A stretch of 52,122 bases of DNA from contig NZ_ASHR01000006.1 of the NCBI RefSeq assembly GCF_000400485.1, positions 1 to 52,122 of the forward strand, in the 5' to 3' direction. Positions 24,281 through 33,779 of this stretch are shown one piece after another. The notes beneath the pieces were generated by a model. It did not search any database, was not told the origin of the DNA, and saw only the letters and a list, made by a program, of their open reading frames with translations. Both the position numbers and the translations under genes were made by a program. Position 1 is the first letter of the stretch; each line of letters starts with the position of its first letter. The stretch comes from Agrococcus pavilionensis RW1 (GTDB lineage: Bacteria > Actinomycetota > Actinomycetes > Actinomycetales > Microbacteriaceae).

Positions 24281-24928
24281 GTGACCGAGATCCCCGTCGC
24301 CGCGACCCTCGTGCTCGTGCGCGACGGGCACGCCGGCGCCATCGAGGTGCTGCTGCTCCAGCGGCCCGACCGCGGCTCCTTCCCGGGCGGCTGGGTCTTC
24401 CCCGGCGGCCGCGTCGAGCCGGTCGACGAGGCGGCCGACGAGGAGACCACGGCGCGCAACGCCGCGGTGCGCGAGACGGCCGAGGAGAGCGCGCTCGTCG
24501 TCGACCCCCAGTCGCTCGTGCCGCTGTCGCAGTGGATCCCGCCCGAGCAGCTCGCGACGAAGTTCCACACCTGGTTCTTCGTCGCTCGCGCGCCCGAGGG
24601 CGAGCTGCGCCTGCAGCAGGCCGAGGCGATCGACGCGACCTGGATCCGGCCGGCGGATGCGCTCAAGCGGCACGGGAAGGGCGACCTGCGGCTCTTCCCA
24701 CCCACGTGGGTGACGCTCGACACGCTCCTGCCGTTCCCGACCGTCGACGCGGCCCTCACCGCCATCGCCGGCCGCGAGCCGCAGCGCTACGCGACGAAGC
24801 AGGACCCCGCCCGCGCGCTCGCCATCTGGGAGGGCGACGAGGCGTACGACGGCGGTGCCGACTCCGAGGAGGGGCCGCGGCACCGGCTGCACGTCGGCGC
24901 GCTGCCGTGGCGGTTCGAGCACCGCTGA
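24281..24928 (+). CDS. Nudix hydrolase
   Basis: A 215-residue Nudix-fold protein. The Nudix box starts at FPGGRVEPVDEA and ends at AAVRETAEESAL, with an insertion of about eight residues between the Gly and the REx2EE core, as in the Nudt19/coenzyme A diphosphatase-like subgroup; hydrolysis of a nucleoside diphosphate linked to another group is expected. The GTG start has TAGCGT six bases upstream (24269-24274), and that -10 overlaps the rmuC stop codon. It therefore probably has its own leaderless transcript inside the rmuC end. Confidence 0.85.
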   Translation: MTEIPVAATLVLVRDGHAGAIEVLLLQRPDRGSFPGGWVFPGGRVEPVDEAADEETTARNAAVRETAEESALVVDPQSLVPLSQWIPPEQLATKFHTWFFVARAPEGELRLQQAEAIDATWIRPADALKRHGKGDLRLFPPTWVTLDTLLPFPTVDAALTAIAGREPQRYATKQDPARALAIWEGDEAYDGGADSEEGPRHRLHVGALPWRFEHR

Positions 24929-24978
24929 CCGGCGTCGATGCGACTGCGTCGGCGGCACAGCGTCCTGAGCAGATGCTA

Positions 24979-25011
24979 AGCCTGGCGAACTATGAGCCGA
25001 AGTAGTACCAT
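24979..25011 (+). promoter_or_regulatory. Promoter of the first MarR gene, twin of the one at 33168
   Basis: AGCC (24979-24982), five bases, AACTATGAG (24988-24996), then a -10 TACCAT (25006-25011) six bases before the ATG. Every spacing is identical in front of the second MarR gene at 33207. The shared half-palindrome is a likely MarR-family binding site. Confidence 0.65.
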
Positions 25012-25017
25012 CGGTTC

Positions 25018-25644
25018 ATGAGTGAGGTGGGGCGTGACGTCGATCGCGACCTCATGGACCCCCGCCGCCTCGACGCATCCGCCCGCCTCGTGCGCGAGCA
25101 GGGTCCGAGCGACGCCGAGGTCGACGAGATCACCGACCTCTTCCACGCGCTGCGCCGCTGGCACCGCACCTCCGCCGCGCACAGCGAGGCGAGCCGTCGC
25201 TACATGCGGCTCGGCGAGAACGACATGCGCGCGATCCGGTACGTGATGTCGGCCGGGCACGACGGCGGCATCGTGACCTCGTCGATGATCGCCGAGCACC
25301 TCGGGATCACGGGGCCGTCGGTGACGAAGCTGCTCGACCGGCTCGAGCACGGCGGCCACATCCGCCGCGAGCGGCATCCGCGCGACCGCCGCGCGCTCTC
25401 GATCGTCGTGACCGACGAGACCCGCGCGCAGGCGACCGCGTCGGTGGGCGCCGATCACGCGCGGCGCTACGCCATCGCCGCCGCGCTCTCGCCGGAGGAG
25501 CGCCGGGCAGCGACGAAGTTCCTGAGCCTGCTCGCCGACCTGCCGGTCGTCGAGCACCTTGCGGCCGAGTCGGAGGCATCGGCCCGCCGCGCGAACGCGA
25601 CTAGGGGCGCTCCCACTCCGCGACCGGCCCCGGCTCGACCGTGA
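25018..25644 (+). CDS. MarR-family regulator, paralogue of the crt regulator
   Basis: A 208-residue winged-helix regulator. The dimer helix is DEITDLFHALRRWH; the recognition region is SMIAEHLGITGPSVTKLLDRLEHGG, followed by the wing RRERHPRDRRALS. It is clearly paralogous to the regulator at 33207 (shared SEASRRYM, ENDMRAIR, ITGPSVTK), and the pair brackets the carotenoid operon. It is predicted leaderless. Its last 44 bp overlap the convergent end of the pyrimidine-dimer glycosylase gene. The extended C-terminal tail is Pro/Arg/Ala-rich and absent from the paralogue. It may tune the operon from its far end, by DNA binding or by antisense overlap. Confidence 0.9.
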   Translation: MSEVGRDVDRDLMDPRRLDASARLVREQGPSDAEVDEITDLFHALRRWHRTSAAHSEASRRYMRLGENDMRAIRYVMSAGHDGGIVTSSMIAEHLGITGPSVTKLLDRLEHGGHIRRERHPRDRRALSIVVTDETRAQATASVGADHARRYAIAAALSPEERRAATKFLSLLADLPVVEHLAAESEASARRANATRGAPTPRPAPARP

Positions 25645-26020
25645 AGAGCGGATGCGGCACGGGACGACGGGCGTACCGGAGCCGCTCGGGCGTGCGCTTG
25701 GCGAGCTTCGCCCGCAAGTGGGCCCACTCGAACTCGAGCTGGCCCTCGGTGACCGTCATGCGGGGCGCGGGTCCCGGCATGTCGATGCGCGAGCGGTCGA
25801 AGCGGTAGCCGCGGGCCTCCGCGGCGTCGGCGACTCCGGCGAGGTAGGCGCCGATCGCCACGACCGGATCGGGCTGCTCCCGGAACCGCTGCAGCTGCGG
25901 GTGGCGGGTGTAGCCGCGCGTGCGGCCAGCGAGCACCGCTTGCGCGAGCAGCGCCTCTCGCCAGCACGCCGTGAGCCCCGGCCGATCGAGCAGGCCGGGG
26001 TGGAGCGACCAGATCCTCAC
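25601..26020 (-). CDS. Pyrimidine dimer DNA glycosylase / endonuclease V-like
   Basis: A 139-residue protein. VRIWSLHPGLLDRPGLTACW at the N-terminus, then ALLAQAVLAGRTRGYTRHPQLQRF and VTEGQLEFEWAHLRAKL are characteristic of the Pyr_excise (T4 endonuclease V-like) family, which cuts the glycosyl bond of UV-induced pyrimidine dimers and nicks the strand. The GTG start overlaps the upstream stop in a GTGA tetranucleotide, making it the last gene of the carotenoid operon. Placing UV repair in a pigment operon suggests common induction by light. The activity is family knowledge; the link to pigment is inference. Confidence 0.85.
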   Translation of the reverse strand: MRIWSLHPGLLDRPGLTACWREALLAQAVLAGRTRGYTRHPQLQRFREQPDPVVAIGAYLAGVADAAEARGYRFDRSRIDMPGPAPRMTVTEGQLEFEWAHLRAKLAKRTPERLRYARRPVPHPLFTVEPGPVAEWERP

Positions 26021-27546
26021 GAGCGCGCCTCCGCCGCCGCGACGATGCGGCTCGCCATGACCTCGAAGATCACCTGGTGCGCGGGCACGAGCGACCACCA
26101 GTAGAGGCGACCGCTCAGCCCGCTCGGCAGGAACACCGCGCGCTGCCGGTAGTGCGCGCCGCTGCCGCGCGGGGTCACCTCGAACTCGATCCACGCGCGG
26201 CCCGGCACCCGCATCTCGGCGCGCAGCCGCAGCAGTCGCCCGCGCTCGATGCGCTCGACGCGCCACCAGTCGACGACGTCGCCCTCGCGCAGCGCCTCCG
26301 GGTCGCGGCGGCCGCGGCGCAGCCCGACGCCGCCGACGAGGCGGTCTGCGAGGCCGCGGATGCTCCACAGCAGCGGCACCGAGTACCAGCCGCGCTCGCC
26401 CCCGATCGACTCGACGACGCGCCAGACCGACTCCGGTGACGCATCCGTCGACCGCTCGCGCGCATCCTCGAAGACGGTCGATCCCGACCAGGCCGGATCG
26501 CTCGGCAGCGGATCGGAGGGGGCGCCCGCGGGGCTCGCCGAGCGCCAGCTCGACTCGATGTCGCCGGAGCGCTCGCGCGCGAGCGCGAGCCGCACGGCGT
26601 GCCGGTAGCCGGTGAGGCCGGCCGCGGGCGGCGGGATGACGGCGTCGATGCGGCGCTCCTCGACCACGCAGTCGTGCAGCAGCGAGCCGATGAGGGGCAC
26701 GGCGATCGCGCGCGGGACCGGCGTGACGAGGTTGACCCACTGCGACGCGAGCCACGGCGTGAGCACCGGGAGCGGTGCGATCGGCCGCTGCGGCAGGCCC
26801 GCCTCGAGCGCGTAGCCGTTCATCACCTGACCGTAGCGCAGCACGTCCGGGCCGCCGATGTCGAAGGCGCCGTGCACCTCGCTCGGCACCGTGGCCGCGC
26901 GCACGAGATAGTGCAGCACGTCGCGCACCGCGATCGGCTGCACGAAGTTGCGCACCCAGCGCGGCGCGGGCATGTAGGGCAGCACCTCGGTGAGGTGGCG
27001 GATCATCTCGAAGGACGCGGATCCGGAGCCGATGACGATGCCCGCCTGCAGCACGATCGTGGGCACGCCGGAGGCCAGCAGCGTCTCGCCGACGGCGACG
27101 CGCGACGCGAGGTGCTTCGAGAGCCGCTCGCCCTCCGGGTGCAGCCCCGAGAGGTAGACGATGCGCTCGACGCCCGCCGCCCTGGCCGCGGCGGCGACGT
27201 GCCGCGCCTGCGCGAGCTCGGCGGCCATGAAGTCGCCGCCCGCGCTCATCGCGTGCACGAGGTGGAAGACGACCTGCTGGCCCTCGAACGCCGCGGCGAG
27301 GCCCTCGGGCTCCTCGAGGTCGCCGCGGACGACCTCGACCTCGTCGACCCAGGGAGCGTCGGCGAGCCGGCCGGGATCGCGCGCGAGCGCGCGCACCCGG
27401 TGCCCGGCGAGGGCGAGCCGCGGGATGAGCCGCCCGCCGACGTAGCCCGTCGCGCCGGTGACGAGCACCGAGCGGCGCTCCGCCTCGGGCAGCCGCTCGA
27501 TCGGCGGCTCGGGCGCGAGCCGCGCCACGCTTGCGTGCGCGGTCAT
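26017..27546 (-). CDS. NAD(P)-binding SDR fused to DUF2867
   Basis: A 509-residue two-domain protein. Residues about 25-330 are an atypical NmrA/SDR-like Rossmann domain (LVTGATGYVGGRLIPRLALAGHRVRALARDP; later GDLEEPEGLAAAF). Residues about 350-505 are DUF2867 (a START-like, hydrophobic-ligand-binding fold is likely; note SVWRVVESIGGERGW and LYWWSLVPAHQVIFEVMA). It has ATGA overlaps with crtEb upstream and GTGA with the glycosylase gene downstream, so it is in the carotenoid operon. A modifying or handling role for a hydrophobic pigment is attractive but unproven. Confidence 0.82.
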   Translation of the reverse strand: MTAHASVARLAPEPPIERLPEAERRSVLVTGATGYVGGRLIPRLALAGHRVRALARDPGRLADAPWVDEVEVVRGDLEEPEGLAAAFEGQQVVFHLVHAMSAGGDFMAAELAQARHVAAAARAAGVERIVYLSGLHPEGERLSKHLASRVAVGETLLASGVPTIVLQAGIVIGSGSASFEMIRHLTEVLPYMPAPRWVRNFVQPIAVRDVLHYLVRAATVPSEVHGAFDIGGPDVLRYGQVMNGYALEAGLPQRPIAPLPVLTPWLASQWVNLVTPVPRAIAVPLIGSLLHDCVVEERRIDAVIPPPAAGLTGYRHAVRLALARERSGDIESSWRSASPAGAPSDPLPSDPAWSGSTVFEDARERSTDASPESVWRVVESIGGERGWYSVPLLWSIRGLADRLVGGVGLRRGRRDPEALREGDVVDWWRVERIERGRLLRLRAEMRVPGRAWIEFEVTPRGSGAHYRQRAVFLPSGLSGRLYWWSLVPAHQVIFEVMASRIVAAAEARS

Positions 27547-28442
27547 CGGCCGAGCATCGCCCACGCGATGCAGAGCATCGTGACGACGAATCCGCAGCCG
27601 TAGTTCACCCACAGGAAGCGGCGCCAGCCGCGGTTCGCCTCCGCGCTCGACGCGTCGGTGATCCTCCAGAACGGCGCGGCGAGCACGATGTACGGCACGG
27701 CGACGAGCGCCCCGAGCGACGCGGGCCAGGGCGCGAGCAGCATGAGCACGCCCGCGGCGGCCCACAGGGCGATCGCGAGGCGCACGGTCGCGCGGGCGCC
27801 GAGCACCGTCGCGATCGAGGCGATGCCGCCCTCGCGGTCGGGCACGACGTCCTGCACGGCGCCGAAGGCGTGGCTCGCCATGCCCCAGCAGAAGAACGCG
27901 ACGAGGATGGCGACGAGCTGCGGCGTCCAGTCGGCGCCGGCGAGCACGAGGCCGTAGACGGCGGGGCTCACGAAGTGGGTGCTCGAGGTGATCGAGTCGA
28001 GCAGCGGCACCTCCTTGAAGCGCAGGCCTCGCGCCGAGTAGGCGACGACCGCGAACAGGCTCACGGCGAGCACCGCCCACGACGCCGGGCCTCCCATCGC
28101 GATGAGCGCGACGACGAACGGCACGGCGAGCCCGATCGACCACGCGAGCGTCGCGCGGTGCGTCTCGGGCGGCAGCAGCGCACCCTCCACGCCGCCCTTC
28201 CGCGGGTTCTTGGCGTCGGATGCGTAGTCGAAGACGTCGTTGATGCCGTACATCGCGAGGTTGTACGGCACGAGGAAGAAGAGCGTGCCGATGATCGTGC
28301 GGACGTCGACGGCGCCGGTGGTGAGCACCATCGCGGCGGCGAACGGGAAGGCGGTGTTGATCCAGCTCACCGGGCGCGAGGCGAGCAGCAGCCGGCGGGC
28401 GAGGCCGGGGCCGGTGACCGCGCCCTCGGCGACCTCACGCAT
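27543..28442 (-). CDS. crtEb: Lycopene elongase, UbiA family (CrtEb-like)
   Basis: A 299-residue polytopic prenyltransferase with eight to nine membrane segments. The first Asp-rich motif is NDVFDYASD (about residues 68-76) after PYNLAMYGI, and the second is near QDVVPDREGGIASIATVLG. In C. glutamicum and relatives CrtEb adds dimethylallyl units to both ends of lycopene, giving the C50 flavuxanthin precursor. It follows crtYf with an 8-bp overlap and precedes the SDR/DUF2867 gene with a 4-bp overlap. Confidence 0.92.
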   Translation of the reverse strand: MREVAEGAVTGPGLARRLLLASRPVSWINTAFPFAAAMVLTTGAVDVRTIIGTLFFLVPYNLAMYGINDVFDYASDAKNPRKGGVEGALLPPETHRATLAWSIGLAVPFVVALIAMGGPASWAVLAVSLFAVVAYSARGLRFKEVPLLDSITSSTHFVSPAVYGLVLAGADWTPQLVAILVAFFCWGMASHAFGAVQDVVPDREGGIASIATVLGARATVRLAIALWAAAGVLMLLAPWPASLGALVAVPYIVLAAPFWRITDASSAEANRGWRRFLWVNYGCGFVVTMLCIAWAMLGR

Positions 28443-28767
28443 CCGTCGCCTCCGACGCGTCGTCGCCCCTGCGCGCGGCCCGGCTCGGCAGCAGCGTCCA
28501 GATGGCGGCGGCGAGCAGCACGGCGATGAGCGCGTAGCCGAGGTCCTCGATCGGCGCGAGGGCGATGTGCGGGCCGAGGAGCTTCGCGTCGTCGTAGCGG
28601 AAGAGGTCGGCCGCGATCATGAGCGAGTCGAACACGATCGTGAGGGCGAGCACGATCGCCGCGGCGATCGCGAGCGCGCCCCAGCGGCGGCGGTCGCGGC
28701 GCAGCGCGAGCACGGCCGCGACGATCGAGGCGGCGAGCAGCGGCGCGAGCACGAGGATGTAGCTCAC
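28435..28767 (-). CDS. crtYf: C50 carotenoid epsilon/gamma-cyclase small subunit (CrtYf-like)
   Basis: A 110-residue membrane protein with three hydrophobic segments and the lycopene-cyclase-domain signature FRYDDAKLLGPHIALAPIEDLGYAL. Cyclases of this type work as a heterodimer of two small subunits, here with CrtYe. They close the ends of flavuxanthin to form decaprenoxanthin-like (epsilon) or sarcinaxanthin-like (gamma) rings; the sequence does not tell which. The GTG start overlaps the crtYe stop (GTGA). Confidence 0.9.
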   Translation of the reverse strand: MSYILVLAPLLAASIVAAVLALRRDRRRWGALAIAAAIVLALTIVFDSLMIAADLFRYDDAKLLGPHIALAPIEDLGYALIAVLLAAAIWTLLPSRAARRGDDASEATDA

Positions 28768-29102
28768 GCGCGCTCCTCGACCCGGGCGCGACGGCTCGCC
28801 AGCAGCCGCTCGCCGGCCGCGAAGGCGACGAGCGAGACGTAGGCGAGGAAGGCGATGAAGAAGAGCTCCTCGATCGGCAGGTGCGGCAGCACCTCGAAGC
28901 CGGTCATCCAGGGCGACGCGCCGAGCCGGAAGTTGCCGGTCGCGATGCACGCGAGGTCGGTGATGAGCAGCACCGCGGCGGTGCCGGCGACCGCGCCGAG
29001 CGCGCGCAGCGGGTCGGCGAAGAGCGCGAGCCGCCACCGCGCGTCGAGGAGGCCGACGCAGAAGGCCGAGACGACGATCGCACCGAGGTAGACGAAGCTC
29101 AC
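28764..29102 (-). CDS. crtYe: C50 carotenoid cyclase small subunit (CrtYe-like)
   Basis: A 112-residue membrane protein with three hydrophobic segments. LPHLPIEELFFIAFLAYVSL near residues 72-91 carries the PxE motif conserved in this cyclase subunit, and NFRLGASPWMTGFEVLP precedes it. It pairs with CrtYf. GTGA overlaps join it to crtI before and crtYf after, so subunit amounts are probably kept equal by coupled translation. Confidence 0.9.
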   Translation of the reverse strand: MSFVYLGAIVVSAFCVGLLDARWRLALFADPLRALGAVAGTAAVLLITDLACIATGNFRLGASPWMTGFEVLPHLPIEELFFIAFLAYVSLVAFAAGERLLASRRARVEERA

Positions 29103-30679
29103 GGCCGCTGCCCCGCCCGCTCGGGCTCGAGCGGCTGCAGCGGGCCGGTCGAGCGCTCGCCGCGCACGTGCTTCACCACGAGCTCCGCCGAGATGAGGCA
29201 CATCGGCACGCCGATGCCGGGGACGGTCGTCGAGCCCGCGAGCAGGAGGTCGCGCACCGACGCGTGCTTCGTCGAGCCGCGCAGGAACGCCGACTGCCGG
29301 AGCGTGTGGGCCGGGCCGAGGGCCGTGCCGCGCCACGCGTCGAGGTCGGCCGCGAAGTCGGCCGGACCGACGGTGCGGCGCGTGACGACCCGCTCGGCGA
29401 GCCGCTCGATGCCCGCCCACTCGGCGATCTGCGCGATCGCGCGATCGGCGATCGCCTCGACCGCGGCGTCGCCGGCGCCGTCGACGCCGCCGCGGCCGAG
29501 CCGCGGGTCGGCCGGCACGGGCACGAGCACGAAGAGCGCCTCGTGGCCGGCGGGCGCGACCGAGGGGTCGGTGGCGGAGGTGCGGCTGACGTAGAGCGAC
29601 GCGGGGTCGGTGACGCCGTCGGCCGGGTCGGCGGCGGGCGGGCCGAAGATGCGCCCGAAGCCGTCCTCCCAGTCGCGCGTGAAGAGCAGCGTGTGGTGCT
29701 CGAGCTCGGGCAGCTCGCCCTCGACGCCGAGCATGACGAGCACGGCGGAGGGGCCGGCGACGCGCTTCGCCCAGCGGCGTCGGGCGCGCTCGGCGACCCC
29801 GGGCACGTGCGCGAGCAGCTTCGTGTCGGTCGCGTGGCCGTCGGCGGCCGAGACCACGAGGTCGGCGTCGATGCGCTCGCCGCTCTCGAGCAGCACGCCG
29901 CGGGCGGCGCCCTGCTCGACGACGATGCGCCGCACGCGCGCGCCCGTGCGCAGCTCAGCGCCCGCCTCGCGCGCGAGCCGGGCCATCGCCTCGACGAGCA
30001 CGCCGAAGCCGCCCTGCGGGTACCAGACGCCCTCGACGAGGTCGAAGTGGCTCATGAGGTGGTACATCGAGGGCGCCGACCTCGGCTCGGTGCCGAGGAA
30101 GACCGCCGGGTAGCCGAGCGCCTGCCGCAGCCGCACGTCGCGGAACGATCGCGCGACGCGGGAGTGCAGGGTCTCGACGAGCAGCCGCGCGAGCGTGGGC
30201 AGCCGGGTGCCGACGCCGACCCCCGCGAACGCGCCCGGCGAGTCGAAGCGGTTCGAGAGCAGCCCCGAGGTCGCGAGCTCGGCGGTCTCGCTCGCCGAGC
30301 GCAGGTAGCGCCGCAGCTCCTCCCCCGCGCCCGGCTCGATGCGCTCGAACGCCGCGATCGTCGCCTCGAGGTCGCCGGAGACCTCGAGCGGCTCGTCGAC
30401 GCCCTCGTAGAGCACCTTGTAGGCCGGGTCGAGCCGCACGACGTCGACCTCCGCTTCGAGGCTCGAGCCGAGCATCCGGAACGCGTGCTCGTAGGGCTCG
30501 CGCATGAGCATCCACGAGGGCCCGGTGTCGAACGTGAAGCCCTTCGAGCGCCAGGTGCCGGCGCGGCCGCCGAGTGCCTCGCCCTGCTCGACGAGCACGA
30601 CCTCGTGGCCGTCGCGCGCGAGCAGGCCCGCGCTCGCGAGCCCCGCGATGCCGCCGCCGATCACCACGATGCGGCTCAT
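29099..30679 (-). CDS. crtI: Phytoene desaturase
   Basis: A 526-residue FAD enzyme. The N-terminal VIGGGIAGLASAGLLARDG binds FAD, EALGGRAGTWRSKGFTFDTG follows, and the C-terminal signature is GIGVPMCLISAELVVKH. CrtI introduces four double bonds into phytoene to give red lycopene, the substrate of CrtEb. Typical CrtI is about 500-550 residues. It overlaps crtB (ATGA) and crtYe (GTGA). Confidence 0.96.
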   Translation of the reverse strand: MSRIVVIGGGIAGLASAGLLARDGHEVVLVEQGEALGGRAGTWRSKGFTFDTGPSWMLMREPYEHAFRMLGSSLEAEVDVVRLDPAYKVLYEGVDEPLEVSGDLEATIAAFERIEPGAGEELRRYLRSASETAELATSGLLSNRFDSPGAFAGVGVGTRLPTLARLLVETLHSRVARSFRDVRLRQALGYPAVFLGTEPRSAPSMYHLMSHFDLVEGVWYPQGGFGVLVEAMARLAREAGAELRTGARVRRIVVEQGAARGVLLESGERIDADLVVSAADGHATDTKLLAHVPGVAERARRRWAKRVAGPSAVLVMLGVEGELPELEHHTLLFTRDWEDGFGRIFGPPAADPADGVTDPASLYVSRTSATDPSVAPAGHEALFVLVPVPADPRLGRGGVDGAGDAAVEAIADRAIAQIAEWAGIERLAERVVTRRTVGPADFAADLDAWRGTALGPAHTLRQSAFLRGSTKHASVRDLLLAGSTTVPGIGVPMCLISAELVVKHVRGERSTGPLQPLEPERAGQRP

Positions 30680-31584
30680 CGGGCCGGCTCCAGCCGCGCC
30701 TCGCGCGCGCTCGTCGCGCGGGCGACGCTCGCGCCGAGCGCGGCTCGGGCGACGATCGCCGCCTTCTCGGCGCTCGGCACGCTGATGCGGCGCCGGGGCA
30801 GCTCGTCGGCGGGGGTCGCGCGGATGCGTCGGGCGAGCGCCGCGAAGAGGCCGTGCGCGGCGAGCACGGCCGGGCGCGCCTCGCGCGGCAGCAGCGGCAC
30901 GGTGTCGCGCGCGATGCGCAGCTCTCCCTCGAGCCGGTCGAGCACGCGGCCGACGGCCTCCTCGGTCGGATGCGCGGGATCGACGCCCGGCAGGTACGCG
31001 CGGCCCAGGCCGTCGGCGTCGGCGCCGATGTCGCGCAGGAAGTTCACCACCTGGAAGGCGGAGCCGAGGGCGCGGGCGCCGCGGTCGACGCGCCGCGCCT
31101 GGGCGTCGGGCAGCCGCCGGCCGCCGAGGAAGCAGCGCACGCACATGAGGCCCACGACCTCGGCGGAGCCGTAGACGTAGCTGCGCAGCTCGCGCTCGTC
31201 GCGGAACGCGACGGGCTCGAGATCGCGCCGCATCGCCGCGAAGAAGGGCGCGGTCTGGTCGGCCGTGATGCCGACCCGGCGGGCCGTCTCGGCGAAGGCG
31301 TGCACGACGAGGTCGGCGCTGAAGCCGGTCGCGACCGCGCGCTCCACCTCGCGCTCGAGGGCGTCGAGCACCTCGCGGCATGAGCGGGTGTCGAGGCCCG
31401 ACTCGGCGCCGGGCCCGTCGACGATCTCGTCGGCGACGCGCACGAGGGCGTAGACGCTCGCGATGTCGCCGCGCATGACGGGCGGCAGCAGCCGGCTCGC
31501 GAGCCCGAACGATGTCGAGTACGCCTCGATGACCGTCGCGCTCGCGCGCCGGGCGGTGCGCGTGTAGAGGTCGAGGCCCGTCAT
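30676..31584 (-). CDS. crtB: Phytoene synthase
   Basis: A 302-residue squalene/phytoene synthase. The two Asp-rich motifs are VRVADEIVDG (about residues 49-58) and NFLRDIGADADGLGRAYLP (about 180-200), which bind Mg-diphosphate. It condenses two geranylgeranyl diphosphates to phytoene. The start ATG overlaps the crtE stop (ATGA). Confidence 0.96.
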   Translation of the reverse strand: MTGLDLYTRTARRASATVIEAYSTSFGLASRLLPPVMRGDIASVYALVRVADEIVDGPGAESGLDTRSCREVLDALEREVERAVATGFSADLVVHAFAETARRVGITADQTAPFFAAMRRDLEPVAFRDERELRSYVYGSAEVVGLMCVRCFLGGRRLPDAQARRVDRGARALGSAFQVVNFLRDIGADADGLGRAYLPGVDPAHPTEEAVGRVLDRLEGELRIARDTVPLLPREARPAVLAAHGLFAALARRIRATPADELPRRRISVPSAEKAAIVARAALGASVARATSAREARLEPAR

Positions 31585-32600
31585 CGTCCCCGCTCCACGC
31601 AGCGCGCGAGGATCTGCAGCAGCTCGTCGCGCACCGACTGCTCGACCGGGGCGGCGACGAGCAGCGCGCGCACCTCGTCGCCCCCATCCGCGATGCGGCG
31701 CTCGACCTCGTCGAGCGCGCCGCTGCCGCGCATGACGTGCCGCACTCGCGCGGCGGCGCCCTCATCGGCACCCGGGTCGCCGTAGTGGCTCGCGACGCTC
31801 GCCCAGGCCGGATCGCGGCTCGCGAGCGCCGAGAGCAGGGTCGGCGCTCCGGCGCGGATGTCGCTCAGCGTGCTCTTGCCGGTGATCGCCTCGTCGCCGA
31901 AGACGCCGAGCACGTCGTCGCGCAGCTGGTAGACCACCCCCATCCGCAGGCCGATGTCGCCGAGCGCGGCGATCGCGGCATCGTCGCGGCCGCCGAGCAC
32001 GGCGCCGAGCTCGAGCGGAGCGCGGAAGGAGTAGTCGGCGGTCTTGCCCTCGAGGATGCGGTCGATCGCGGCGTGGTCGGGCGTCGCGCCGGCGAGCAGG
32101 ACGTCGTCGTGCTCGCCCTCGGCGGCGCGCACCATCGCTCGCGTGACGATCCCGAGCACGCGCGAGCGCAGCGCGCTGGGCGCGTCGAGCGACCCGAGCG
32201 AGGCGATCGCTCGCACGAGCAGCGCATCGCCCGTGACGATCGCGGCGGCGAGGCCGAGCCGCTCGGCCCGCGCCGGCGCGAGGCCGGCCTCGGCGGCGAG
32301 ATCGCGCGCCTCGCGCGCGACCGACGGCTCGCCGCGACGCTCCTCGTCGCCGTCGATGACGTCGTCGTGCACGAGCAGCGCCGCGTGCAGCAGCTCGATC
32401 GCCGCCGCGACGGCGACGACGGCGTCGCGATCGGCGCTGCGGCCGGCCGCAGCCATCACGAGTCGGGGGCGGAGCAGCTTGCCGCCGGCCGCGGCCCGGG
32501 CCGCCGCGGCCTGCACGGGGTGCGGACCTGTCGGCGCGGCGAGCTGCGCGATGCGCTGCTCGACCTCGGCGAGCAGCGTCGGCGCGTCGACGGCGGTCAC
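31581..32600 (-). CDS. crtE: Geranylgeranyl diphosphate synthase
   Basis: A 339-residue trans-prenyl diphosphate synthase. The first Asp-rich motif LLVHDDVIDGDEERRG (DDxxD) and second YQLRDDVLGVFGDE carry the Mg ligands, and GGKLLRPRLV provides diphosphate-binding Lys/Arg. It supplies GGPP for CrtB. The GTG start at 32600 overlaps the idi stop in a GTGA. GGPP is the known inducer ligand of CrtR-type MarR repressors in C. glutamicum, which may close a feedback loop with the adjacent MarR gene. Confidence 0.95.
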   Translation of the reverse strand: MTAVDAPTLLAEVEQRIAQLAAPTGPHPVQAAAARAAAGGKLLRPRLVMAAAGRSADRDAVVAVAAAIELLHAALLVHDDVIDGDEERRGEPSVAREARDLAAEAGLAPARAERLGLAAAIVTGDALLVRAIASLGSLDAPSALRSRVLGIVTRAMVRAAEGEHDDVLLAGATPDHAAIDRILEGKTADYSFRAPLELGAVLGGRDDAAIAALGDIGLRMGVVYQLRDDVLGVFGDEAITGKSTLSDIRAGAPTLLSALASRDPAWASVASHYGDPGADEGAAARVRHVMRGSGALDEVERRIADGGDEVRALLVAAPVEQSVRDELLQILARCVERGR

Positions 32601-33145
32601 GACGCACCCGCGAGCGCGTGGAGCTGCTCCGCCTGCAGCACGAGCCAGGGGCTGAACGCCCACGGCGTGGCGACGACGCTCGTGCGGAGGTCGTCGGGGT
32701 CGACCCACTGCCACTCGGCGACCTCGCTCGGCTCGGGTTCGAGCGGGCCCGCGATGCGGCCGACGAAGACGGGGCAGCGCTCGTGCTCCACGATGCCGCT
32801 CGCGTCGACCGCGCGGTACGCGAAGTCGGGCAGCACGAGCCGCAGGTCGCTCGCGCTCGTGCCGAGCTCCTGCTGCAAGCGCCGCTGCACGGCGTCCTCG
32901 AACGACTCCCCGGGCGCGGGGTGCCCGCAGCAGCTGTTCGTCCACACACCGGGCCACGCCTGCTTCTCGAGCGAGCGGCGCGTGATGAGGAGCCGGCCCT
33001 CGTCGTCGAGCAGGTAGCACGAGAACGCGAGGTGCAGAGGCGTCGAGTCGGTGTGCACCGTCGCCTTCGGAGCCGAGCCGATCGGCGTGCCGTCGTCATC
33101 GAGCAGCACGACCAGCTCTTCGTCGTTGAGCGGCGGGTTCTCCAT
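32597..33145 (-). CDS. idi: Isopentenyl-diphosphate delta-isomerase, type I
   Basis: A 182-residue Nudix-fold isomerase converting IPP to DMAPP. WTNSCCGHPAPGE holds the catalytic Cys and metal-binding His residues; EDAVQRRLQQELGT is the Nudix-like helix. The ATG at 33145 is chosen over an upstream ATG at 33178 because TACTCT (33157-33152) is six bases before it: leaderless. It opens the nine-gene carotenoid operon, and its promoter interlocks with that of the divergent MarR gene. Confidence 0.95.
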   Translation of the reverse strand: MENPPLNDEELVVLLDDDGTPIGSAPKATVHTDSTPLHLAFSCYLLDDEGRLLITRRSLEKQAWPGVWTNSCCGHPAPGESFEDAVQRRLQQELGTSASDLRLVLPDFAYRAVDASGIVEHERCPVFVGRIAGPLEPEPSEVAEWQWVDPDDLRTSVVATPWAFSPWLVLQAEQLHALAGAS

Positions 33146-33151
33146 GCCCCG

Positions 33152-33200
33152 AGAGTAGCAAACACTTAGCCATTGCAACTATGAGTTGTGGCAATAGAAT
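33152..33200. promoter_or_regulatory. Divergent idi / MarR promoter with palindromic operator
   Basis: Plus strand: -35 TTGCAA (33174-33179), 16 bp, -10 TAGAAT (33195-33200), six bases, ATG. Minus strand: -10 TACTCT (33157-33152) for idi, with the same TTGCAA as a possible -35. The perfect palindrome CAACT-ATG-AGTTG (33176-33188) lies in the middle, so a repressor bound there would block both genes. It resembles known CrtR-type MarR sites in size and placement. Confidence 0.75.
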
Positions 33201-33206
33201 GAGCGC

Positions 33207-33779
33207 ATGCCGCAGACGCCGAACGAGGGTCCGCACGAGCGCGAGATGCTCGATCCGCGCCGCTACGACGTGTCCTCGTCGTTGGTCTCCGAGTATGGCT
33301 TGAGCGACGGCGAGGTGGAAGAGGTCATCGACCTGTTCGACGCGCTGCGGGGCTGGCACAGCGCATCCGAGGCGCAGAGCGAGGCGAGCCGGCGCTACAT
33401 GAAGCTGAGCGAGAACGACATGCGCGCGATCCGCTTCATCATGGCGACGACCCGCGAGCAGCGCATCGTCACGTCGACGATGCTCGCCGAGCACCTGCGC
33501 ATCACGGGGCCCTCGGTGACGAAGATGCTCGACCGGCTCGAGCGCGGCGGCCACATCCGCCGTGAGCCGCACCCGACCGACCGCCGCGCGCTCTCGCTCT
33601 TCGTCTCCGAGAGCACGCAGCAGACCGCGAACTCGACGGTCGGGCGCTACCACCTGCGCCGCTTCCAGGTCGCGTGCGAGATGTCGAGCGCCGAGCGCCG
33701 CACGGTGACGGCGTTCCTCCGCCGGCTCGCGGAGGTGCCGCTCCTCGACCCCGGCGCCGAGGCGCCGCAGCCGGGCTAG
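33207..33779 (+). CDS. MarR-family regulator of the carotenoid operon (CrtR-like)
   Basis: A 190-residue winged-helix regulator: dimer helix VEEVIDLFDALRGWH, recognition region TMLAEHLRITGPSVTKMLDRLERGG, wing RREPHPTDRRALSL. It is divergent from idi across a 61-bp gap holding a palindrome, the same arrangement as crtR/crtE in corynebacteria, where the regulator represses carotenoid genes and is relieved by GGPP. The role here is inference from that. It starts leaderless. Its TAG stop shares CTAG with the stop of the converging helicase gene. Confidence 0.92.
   Translation: MPQTPNEGPHEREMLDPRRYDVSSSLVSEYGLSDGEVEEVIDLFDALRGWHSASEAQSEASRRYMKLSENDMRAIRFIMATTREQRIVTSTMLAEHLRITGPSVTKMLDRLERGGHIRREPHPTDRRALSLFVSESTQQTANSTVGRYHLRRFQVACEMSSAERRTVTAFLRRLAEVPLLDPGAEAPQPG

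Follow-up and report, generated by a model that had tools for sequence, protein, structure and literature searches.

Two MarR genes and their promoters at the crt operon

The stretch of DNA analyzed here (the window; 52,122 nucleotides of Agrococcus pavilionensis RW1, contig NZ_ASHR01000006.1) holds a carotenoid (crt) operon with a gene for a MarR_2 regulator at either end. The two genes, M1 (25018–25644, forward strand; PF12802, E 8.7e-12) and M2 (33207–33779, forward strand; PF12802, E 2.7e-11), occupy positions that we refer to as slot 1, at the distal end of the operon, and slot 2, where M2 is divergent from idi (32597–33145, reverse strand), the first gene of the operon, encoding an isopentenyl-diphosphate delta-isomerase (NF002995, 271 bits against a cut-off of 127). 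The genes are arranged as a NUDIX gene and M1 (both forward); a pyrimidine dimer DNA glycosylase-like gene (PDG), an SDR/DUF2867 gene, crtEb, crtYf, crtYe, crtI, crtB, crtE and idi (all reverse); M2 (forward); and a PIF1-like helicase gene (reverse), where the labels of the flanking NUDIX (24281–24928) and helicase genes are our presumption from their sequences. As judged by gene overlaps, idi through PDG would form one operon. The 3' ends of M1 and PDG overlap tail to tail by 44 bp (25601–25644).

The original prediction, drawn from the letters of the DNA, had described twin MarR genes starting at 25018 and 33207 with shared blocks, and the coordinates and the 56% identity of the two proteins agree with it. 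The MarR_2 domain spans residues 70–126 of 208 in M1 and 70–128 of 190 in M2, i.e. both have the CrtR-type layout of a mid-protein winged helix after about 70 residues in a protein of about 190. CrtR is described as a repressor of crtE and of its own gene that is released by geranylgeranyl pyrophosphate (GGPP) (PMC7432914, PMC5401885, PMC6739363), and the published protein has 195 amino acids with the helix-turn-helix at 73–134 (PMC5401885). M2 also stands where a CrtR gene is expected, divergent from crtE, idi or mmpL, and the same place beside idi is taken in relatives. M1 is not divergent from any of these genes: it is convergent with the operon and co-directional with the upstream NUDIX gene, and is called a CrtR paralogue by descent rather than by position. 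The nearest named relative found, A. lahaulensis DSM 17612, has M1, M2 and crtI proteins that are 89%, 96% and 96% identical, respectively.

Each gene is preceded by an operator-like element, TAAGCCTGGCGAACTATGAG before M1 (24977–24996, forward strand) and TTAGCCATTGCAACTATGAG between idi and M2 (33166–33185, forward strand), the latter recognized by its sequence pattern and by scans of the genome and the genus. Promoter-like hexamers of the form TANNNT lie 6 bp before the start codons of M1 (TACCAT, 25006–25011, forward), M2 (TAGAAT, 33195–33200, forward) and idi (TACTCT, 33152–33157, reverse). This spacing is the pattern expected of leaderless actinobacterial promoters, and all three promoters are probably leaderless; since TANNNT sits 6 bp before the start, the element falls over the −35/spacer region. 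The matched distances noted at the outset were borne out: AGCC-N5-AACTATGAG ends 21 bp, and the TANNNT hexamer 6 bp, before both ATGs. A predicted operator thus overlaps the promoter before each regulator's own gene, as in CrtR systems. Only the M2 site stands between divergent genes, where the element could cover two divergent promoters at once.

In the whole 2.88 Mb genome, AGCC-N5-AACTATGAG occurs twice, each time 21 bp before a MarR start, and so does AGCCNNNNNAACTATGAG, with 0 matches for the reversed control; the motif is therefore confined to the two MarR promoters, and the refuting condition named in the original prediction, a motif common elsewhere in the genome, does not hold. A looser pattern (at most 3 mismatches) returned the M1 and M2 sites as the best matches, with 0 and 1 mismatch, followed by one match with 2 mismatches and 19 more with 3; the reversed control gave 96 matches, so the weak extra sites are noise. 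A half-site pattern had 17 matches in this genome against 60 for its control, i.e. nothing above control. The 42 bp preceding the M1 and M2 starts are identical at 24 of 42 bases. When the M2 block was slid over both strands of the window, 24 matches were reached by the M1 site only, and when the M1 block was used, by the M2 site and one other place.

Distribution and descent of the two copies

We surveyed 24 Agrococcus genomes, which hold 29 CrtR promoters (11 slot-1 and 18 slot-2). A slot-1 gene is present in 11 of them (G000, G001, G002, G010, G012, G014, G015, G016, G017, G020 and G021), always at the PDG end and in the same orientation; the match ends at most 180 bp from PDG in seven genomes and 0.8–0.95 kb away in G001, G002, G014 and G016. 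The contig of G017 ends before slot 2. The slot-1 gene of G015 is split over two frames (L105, 13457–13979), i.e. a pseudogene or an assembly error. Eight genomes have the idi-side gene alone (G003, G004, G006, G009, G011, G018, G019 and G023); the completeness of G011 is 78% and that of G019 is 65%, and in G019 the NUDIX-PDG junction is present and empty. Neither gene was found at the survey score in five genomes, G005 (distant homologue only), G007, G008, G013 and G022. The TANNNT hexamer lies 6 bp before the start of all 11 slot-1 genes (7 by script, 4 by eye), of 15 of the 18 slot-2 genes (G011 read by eye and the rest of the 15 by script; the remaining three have 7 bp), and of all 17 idi genes printed by the script.

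Among the five genomes lacking CrtR, crtB and crtEb (58–70% identical) are present in G007, G008 and G013, and neither had a match in G005 or G022. In G007 and G008, which belong to an early-branching group, the crt cluster is rearranged (SDR-idi-crtB-I-Ye-Yf-Eb, with no crtE match there) and is preceded by another MarR gene in the same direction (L205, 7487–8215, and L207, 7410–7958), which shares about 35% identity with M1 across 55 residues; neither genome contains the CrtR motif. No MarR gene was found by the crt cluster of G013 (BLAST at E 1e-3; one open reading frame tested against Pfam).

With at most one mismatch, NAGMCNNNGSAACTATNAG has 29 matches in the 24 genomes, of which 26 are at CrtR promoters and three elsewhere (one each in G006, G010 and G016); the five CrtR-less genomes have none. 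Because the reversed control has 49 matches, the number of matches is uninformative and their position informative. The core AACTATGAG is found in 11/11 slot-1 promoters, and AACTATNAGTT in 9/10 slot-2 promoters of two-copy genomes and in 1/8 of one-copy genomes (the operators of five slot-1 promoters, including G001, were read by eye and the rest by script). The palindrome is missing from the slot-1 site in 10 of 11 cases, and TAGCAAA of the idi side was seen by eye in none of the slot-1 upstream regions. With the slot-1 element kept and TAGCAAA absent, either the breakpoint lay there or the unused half decayed.

The pattern extends in a looser form to related genera. We analyzed 57 related loci, 40 of them regions from Microbacteriaceae (drawn from 49 matches of at least 185 bits in 48 genomes) and 17 further loci, some from other families. 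Although many of the stretches are short, idi lies beside crtR in 31. Within 85 bp before crtR, TA[GA]C-N1-4-G[CT]TA occurs in 28 loci (shuffled mean 1.1, maximum 6), and TAGC or GCTA in 55 (shuffled mean 26, maximum 36). The site of an Agromyces locus (L014), AGCTTAGCGAACTAT, differs little from that of M1, AGCCTGGCGAACTAT. Based on the half-site patterns and this likeness, the Agrococcus motif is most likely the genus form of an autoregulatory operator that would be common to related genera. It is highly improbable that the motif is an ordinary promoter element and that the targets of the MarR proteins have nothing to do with carotenoids: although the element covers the −35/spacer region and lacks the TTAA core of Corynebacterium glutamicum, the genome has it at two promoters only, CrtR promoters account for 26 of the 29 occurrences in the genus, and the place of M2 beside idi recurs in other genera.

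The slot-1 proteins form one clade, with support of 98/90 in one tree and 86/86 in a second, nested inside Agrococcus (100/99 in both). Combined with the presence of AACTATGAG at all 11 slot-1 promoters, this gives good support to the proposal, already made at the outset, that the regulator would have been duplicated together with its operator. The tree that includes M1 and M2 also holds proteins from two species that PMC5401885 lists as having crtR, Microbacterium barkeri (L019) and Agromyces subbeticus (L031). Slot-2 genes of two-copy genomes are a clade with support of 95/86 in the first tree and 59/81 in the second; the slot-1 clade has the slot-2 gene of the one-copy genome G003 as its sister in the first (94/92), a gene that is unplaced in the second. 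Approximately unbiased (AU) tests gave p-AU values of 0.061 for all slot-2 genes as one clade and 0.344 for slot-1 plus two-copy slot-2 genes as one clade, and leave the time of the duplication relative to the one-copy lineages unfixed. The two-copy state requires 2 changes on the crt-protein tree and 4 on the rpoB tree, so that the M1 copy was lost or moved several times; G006 groups with the two-copy genomes G021 and G016 by rpoB and with the one-copy G003 by crt.

Divergence of the copies and control of the operon

Orthologue pairs of either copy have ratios of nonsynonymous to synonymous substitution (dN/dS) of 0.08–0.38 (14 pairs; six M1 pairs, 0.095–0.315), and M1 compared with M2 gives 0.71 in the window genome and 0.40 in G012, all of these being rough values because third positions are biased. 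The low dN/dS and the retention of AACTATGAG in 11/11 promoters suggest that M1 has been under selection in most lineages. Both count against M1 being a redundant dosage copy that has no role of its own and is being lost, an explanation in keeping with the patchy presence (11/24 genomes), the broken frame in G015 and the 2 or 4 changes of state, and one that we regard as improbable.

In the window strain, residues 88–128, which contain the recognition helix, are identical at 34 of 41 positions between M1 and M2, and the helix ITGPSVTK and the operator core AACTATGAG are the same in both copies; the C-terminal region is identical at only 18 of 45 positions, compared with 31–38 of 45 in four pairs of one-copy genes. 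Gene conversion was considered and finds no general support: third-position identity of the recognition segment is 36/41 in the window and just 26/41 in the near relative G010. An arginine preceding the M2 helix was discarded as an oddity, the same residue occurring in other homologues. Among nine two-copy genomes (without G015 and G017), position 18 is the only one with a residue fixed between M1- and M2-types.

Based on these observations, we propose, with a probability of roughly two in three, that M1 and M2 are a pair of CrtR-type repressors that arose from a single duplication within the genus Agrococcus and act jointly on idi-crt. M2, at the usual place of CrtR, would most likely repress both its own gene and the idi-crt operon divergent from it, through one operator that covers the −35/spacer region separating two leaderless promoters; GGPP or another isoprenoid pyrophosphate may release it. 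M1 would be the daughter copy, which took its promoter and operator along to the opposite end of the operon and could control only itself in cis there. Since the recognition segments and the operator cores are nearly the same, each protein probably binds both sites in the window strain, giving two repressors that would repress themselves and each other and act on idi-crt in trans; their effector/dimer regions appear to have drifted apart. The genes, the shared site and its restriction to CrtR promoters, the single clade of M1-type genes and the low dN/dS are observed, and binding, repression, ligand and cross-regulation are what we infer from them. Joint control of crt is plausible and, for the window strain, the function that we consider most probable.

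Several observations weigh against this proposal. First, the palindrome CAACT-ATG-AGTTG, which the original prediction had described, is real between idi and M2 (33176–33188, as read in the sequence) and is not found at M1, where the site reads AACTATGAGCCG. Second, the central TTAA of the C. glutamicum-type operator is absent from 24977–25017 and 33146–33206, and the strict pattern TAGC-N1-4-GCTA is limited to 12 of the 57 loci (0.27 on average in shuffles, maximum 3). Third, the slot-2 promoters of G004, G006 and G011 lack the motif at up to one mismatch. Fourth, M1 is dispensable: of the 19 genomes that have a CrtR gene linked to crt, 8 yielded no M1, and in G015 its frame is broken. Finally, six M2-type proteins carry a different recognition helix, which argues against cross-binding in their genomes: [LV]KGPSVTK in G001, G002, G014 and G020 (operator centres A, A, A and G, respectively), and LQGSSVTK in G016 and G021 (C in both). 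M1-type and single-copy proteins have T or S where these six have K or Q, and the operator centre is G in 21 of 22 T/S-types (the exception being G004; G011 was set aside as it has no recognisable site).

The latter data suggest a different arrangement, in which the control exerted by each paralogue is confined to the promoter region of that paralogue. Only M2 would then govern idi-crt, and M1, whose part in the operon would have been lost or never have existed, would answer a different signal or regulate only itself. The operator centre has changed alongside the helix in most of the six genomes (A in three of four K-types, C in both Q-types), and the M1 site is without the palindrome in 10 of 11 cases. 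However, helix and core are identical in both copies of the window strain, G020 and G004 do not fit, and the co-change, which would reflect no more than one or two evolutionary events, is only suggestive; we therefore consider such a separation unlikely as the general explanation, and possible in the sister Agrococcus group. The proposal of joint control may then be extended, tentatively, to a series within the genus, in which some Agrococcus share an operator code and jointly set crt with diverged sensing domains, and in the sister group the idi-side copy and its operator were rewired together (T/S to K/Q; G to A/C). Repressors duplicated with their own operator would start with full cross-talk, and a single genus appears to hold three states of one pigment switch: single-copy, two-copy with a shared operator, and two-copy with diverged operators. 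With these, one could test in which order the steps of paralogue insulation occur. If this is true, the step from cross-talk to insulation could be watched inside one genus, with a bearing on the design of GGPP biosensors, for which C. glutamicum CrtR already serves according to PMC7432914, and on the linkage of carotenoid and ultraviolet (UV)-repair genes.

Relation to known CrtR systems and the operon genes

Going by its published description, the MarR-type CrtR of C. glutamicum resembles the regulators of the window in having MarR_2 after about 70 residues, in the divergence of its gene from the crt operon (as for M2), and in an autoregulatory operator over promoter elements; it differs in that a single crtR is described at the crt operon, and in its operator, a site of 15–19 bp with a central TTAA (PMC5401885, PMC7432914), a core absent from both sites of the window. 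The Paenarthrobacter nicotinovorans crtR is divergent from idi, and CrtR is reported to bind the crtR-idi region, with GGPP inhibiting the binding (PMC7432914). That genome also has a crtR paralogue, which unlike M1 is beside, and divergent from, mmpL (PMC7432914, Fig. 1 legend), and in the text available to us from this source no further copy is mentioned at the opposite end of the crt operon. More generally, crtR homologues are reported in diverse places, mostly beside crt genes (PMC5401885).

In Antribacter gilvus (L038), two CrtR genes with starts 2.9 kb apart lie by crtE and by an MMPL-like gene (a label read from the translation), and several Promicromonospora genomes have a second CrtR-like copy beside PDG or elsewhere. 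These genomes thus share with Agrococcus the presence of two CrtR homologues, but with the second copy beside the MMPL-like gene or PDG; because these copies are placed elsewhere in the tree than the two from Agrococcus, they apparently represent another duplication. The original statement that known crt clusters have one CrtR was accordingly too strong in view of the mmpL paralogue reported for P. nicotinovorans in PMC7432914 and of the two genes in Antribacter gilvus.

Presence of crtR beside idi is common in relatives. We scored at most 13 candidates in each of 249 Microbacteriaceae genomes (5 of them Agrococcus); outside Agrococcus, 48 genomes had a match of at least 185 bits, one of these (survey genome G147) had two, on different contigs, and none had two on one contig. 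Weaker side-by-side MarR pairs (116–134 bits) occur in the survey (e.g. survey genomes G034, G174 and G196). No CrtR pair flanking a crt operon appeared in the titles or abstract openings among the open-licence literature matches listed. A second CrtR per genome is thus already known (P. nicotinovorans, Antribacter), a flanking pair was not found described, and the window holds a known kind of regulator in an unusual paired arrangement.

The remaining genes of the operon, all on the reverse strand, are as follows. crtE (31581–32600) encodes a polyprenyl (GGPP) synthase-type protein that matches isoprenyl diphosphate synthase families, all below their own cut-offs; crtB (30676–31584; PF00494, E 3e-43) a phytoene synthase; and crtI (29099–30679; TIGR02734, 534 bits) a phytoene desaturase. 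Two lycopene cyclase subunits are encoded by crtYe-like (28764–29102; TIGR03462, 38.4 bits against a cut-off of 39.4) and crtYf-like (28435–28767; TIGR03462, 56 bits; PF18916) genes, followed by a crtEb-like UbiA prenyltransferase gene (27543–28442; NF009608, 451 bits), presumably of the lycopene elongase type. The two cyclase halves and the prenyltransferase (27543–29102) suggest a C50 carotenoid of the decaprenoxanthin type, a prediction at odds with the zeaxanthin favoured in a published Agrococcus genome paper, as far as its accessible text goes (PMC6196244). The last two genes encode an NAD(P)-binding/DUF2867 protein (26017–27546; PF11066, PF13460) and the PDG-like protein (25601–26020; PF03013, E 1.1e-18).

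A relative of PDG is convergent behind crtR in some Agromyces (L014, L031, L032), and another is found just upstream of, and divergent from, the CrtR paralogue in several Promicromonospora (L015, L017, L020, L023, L029, L036). The association of UV repair with CrtR regulators thus extends across more than one family.

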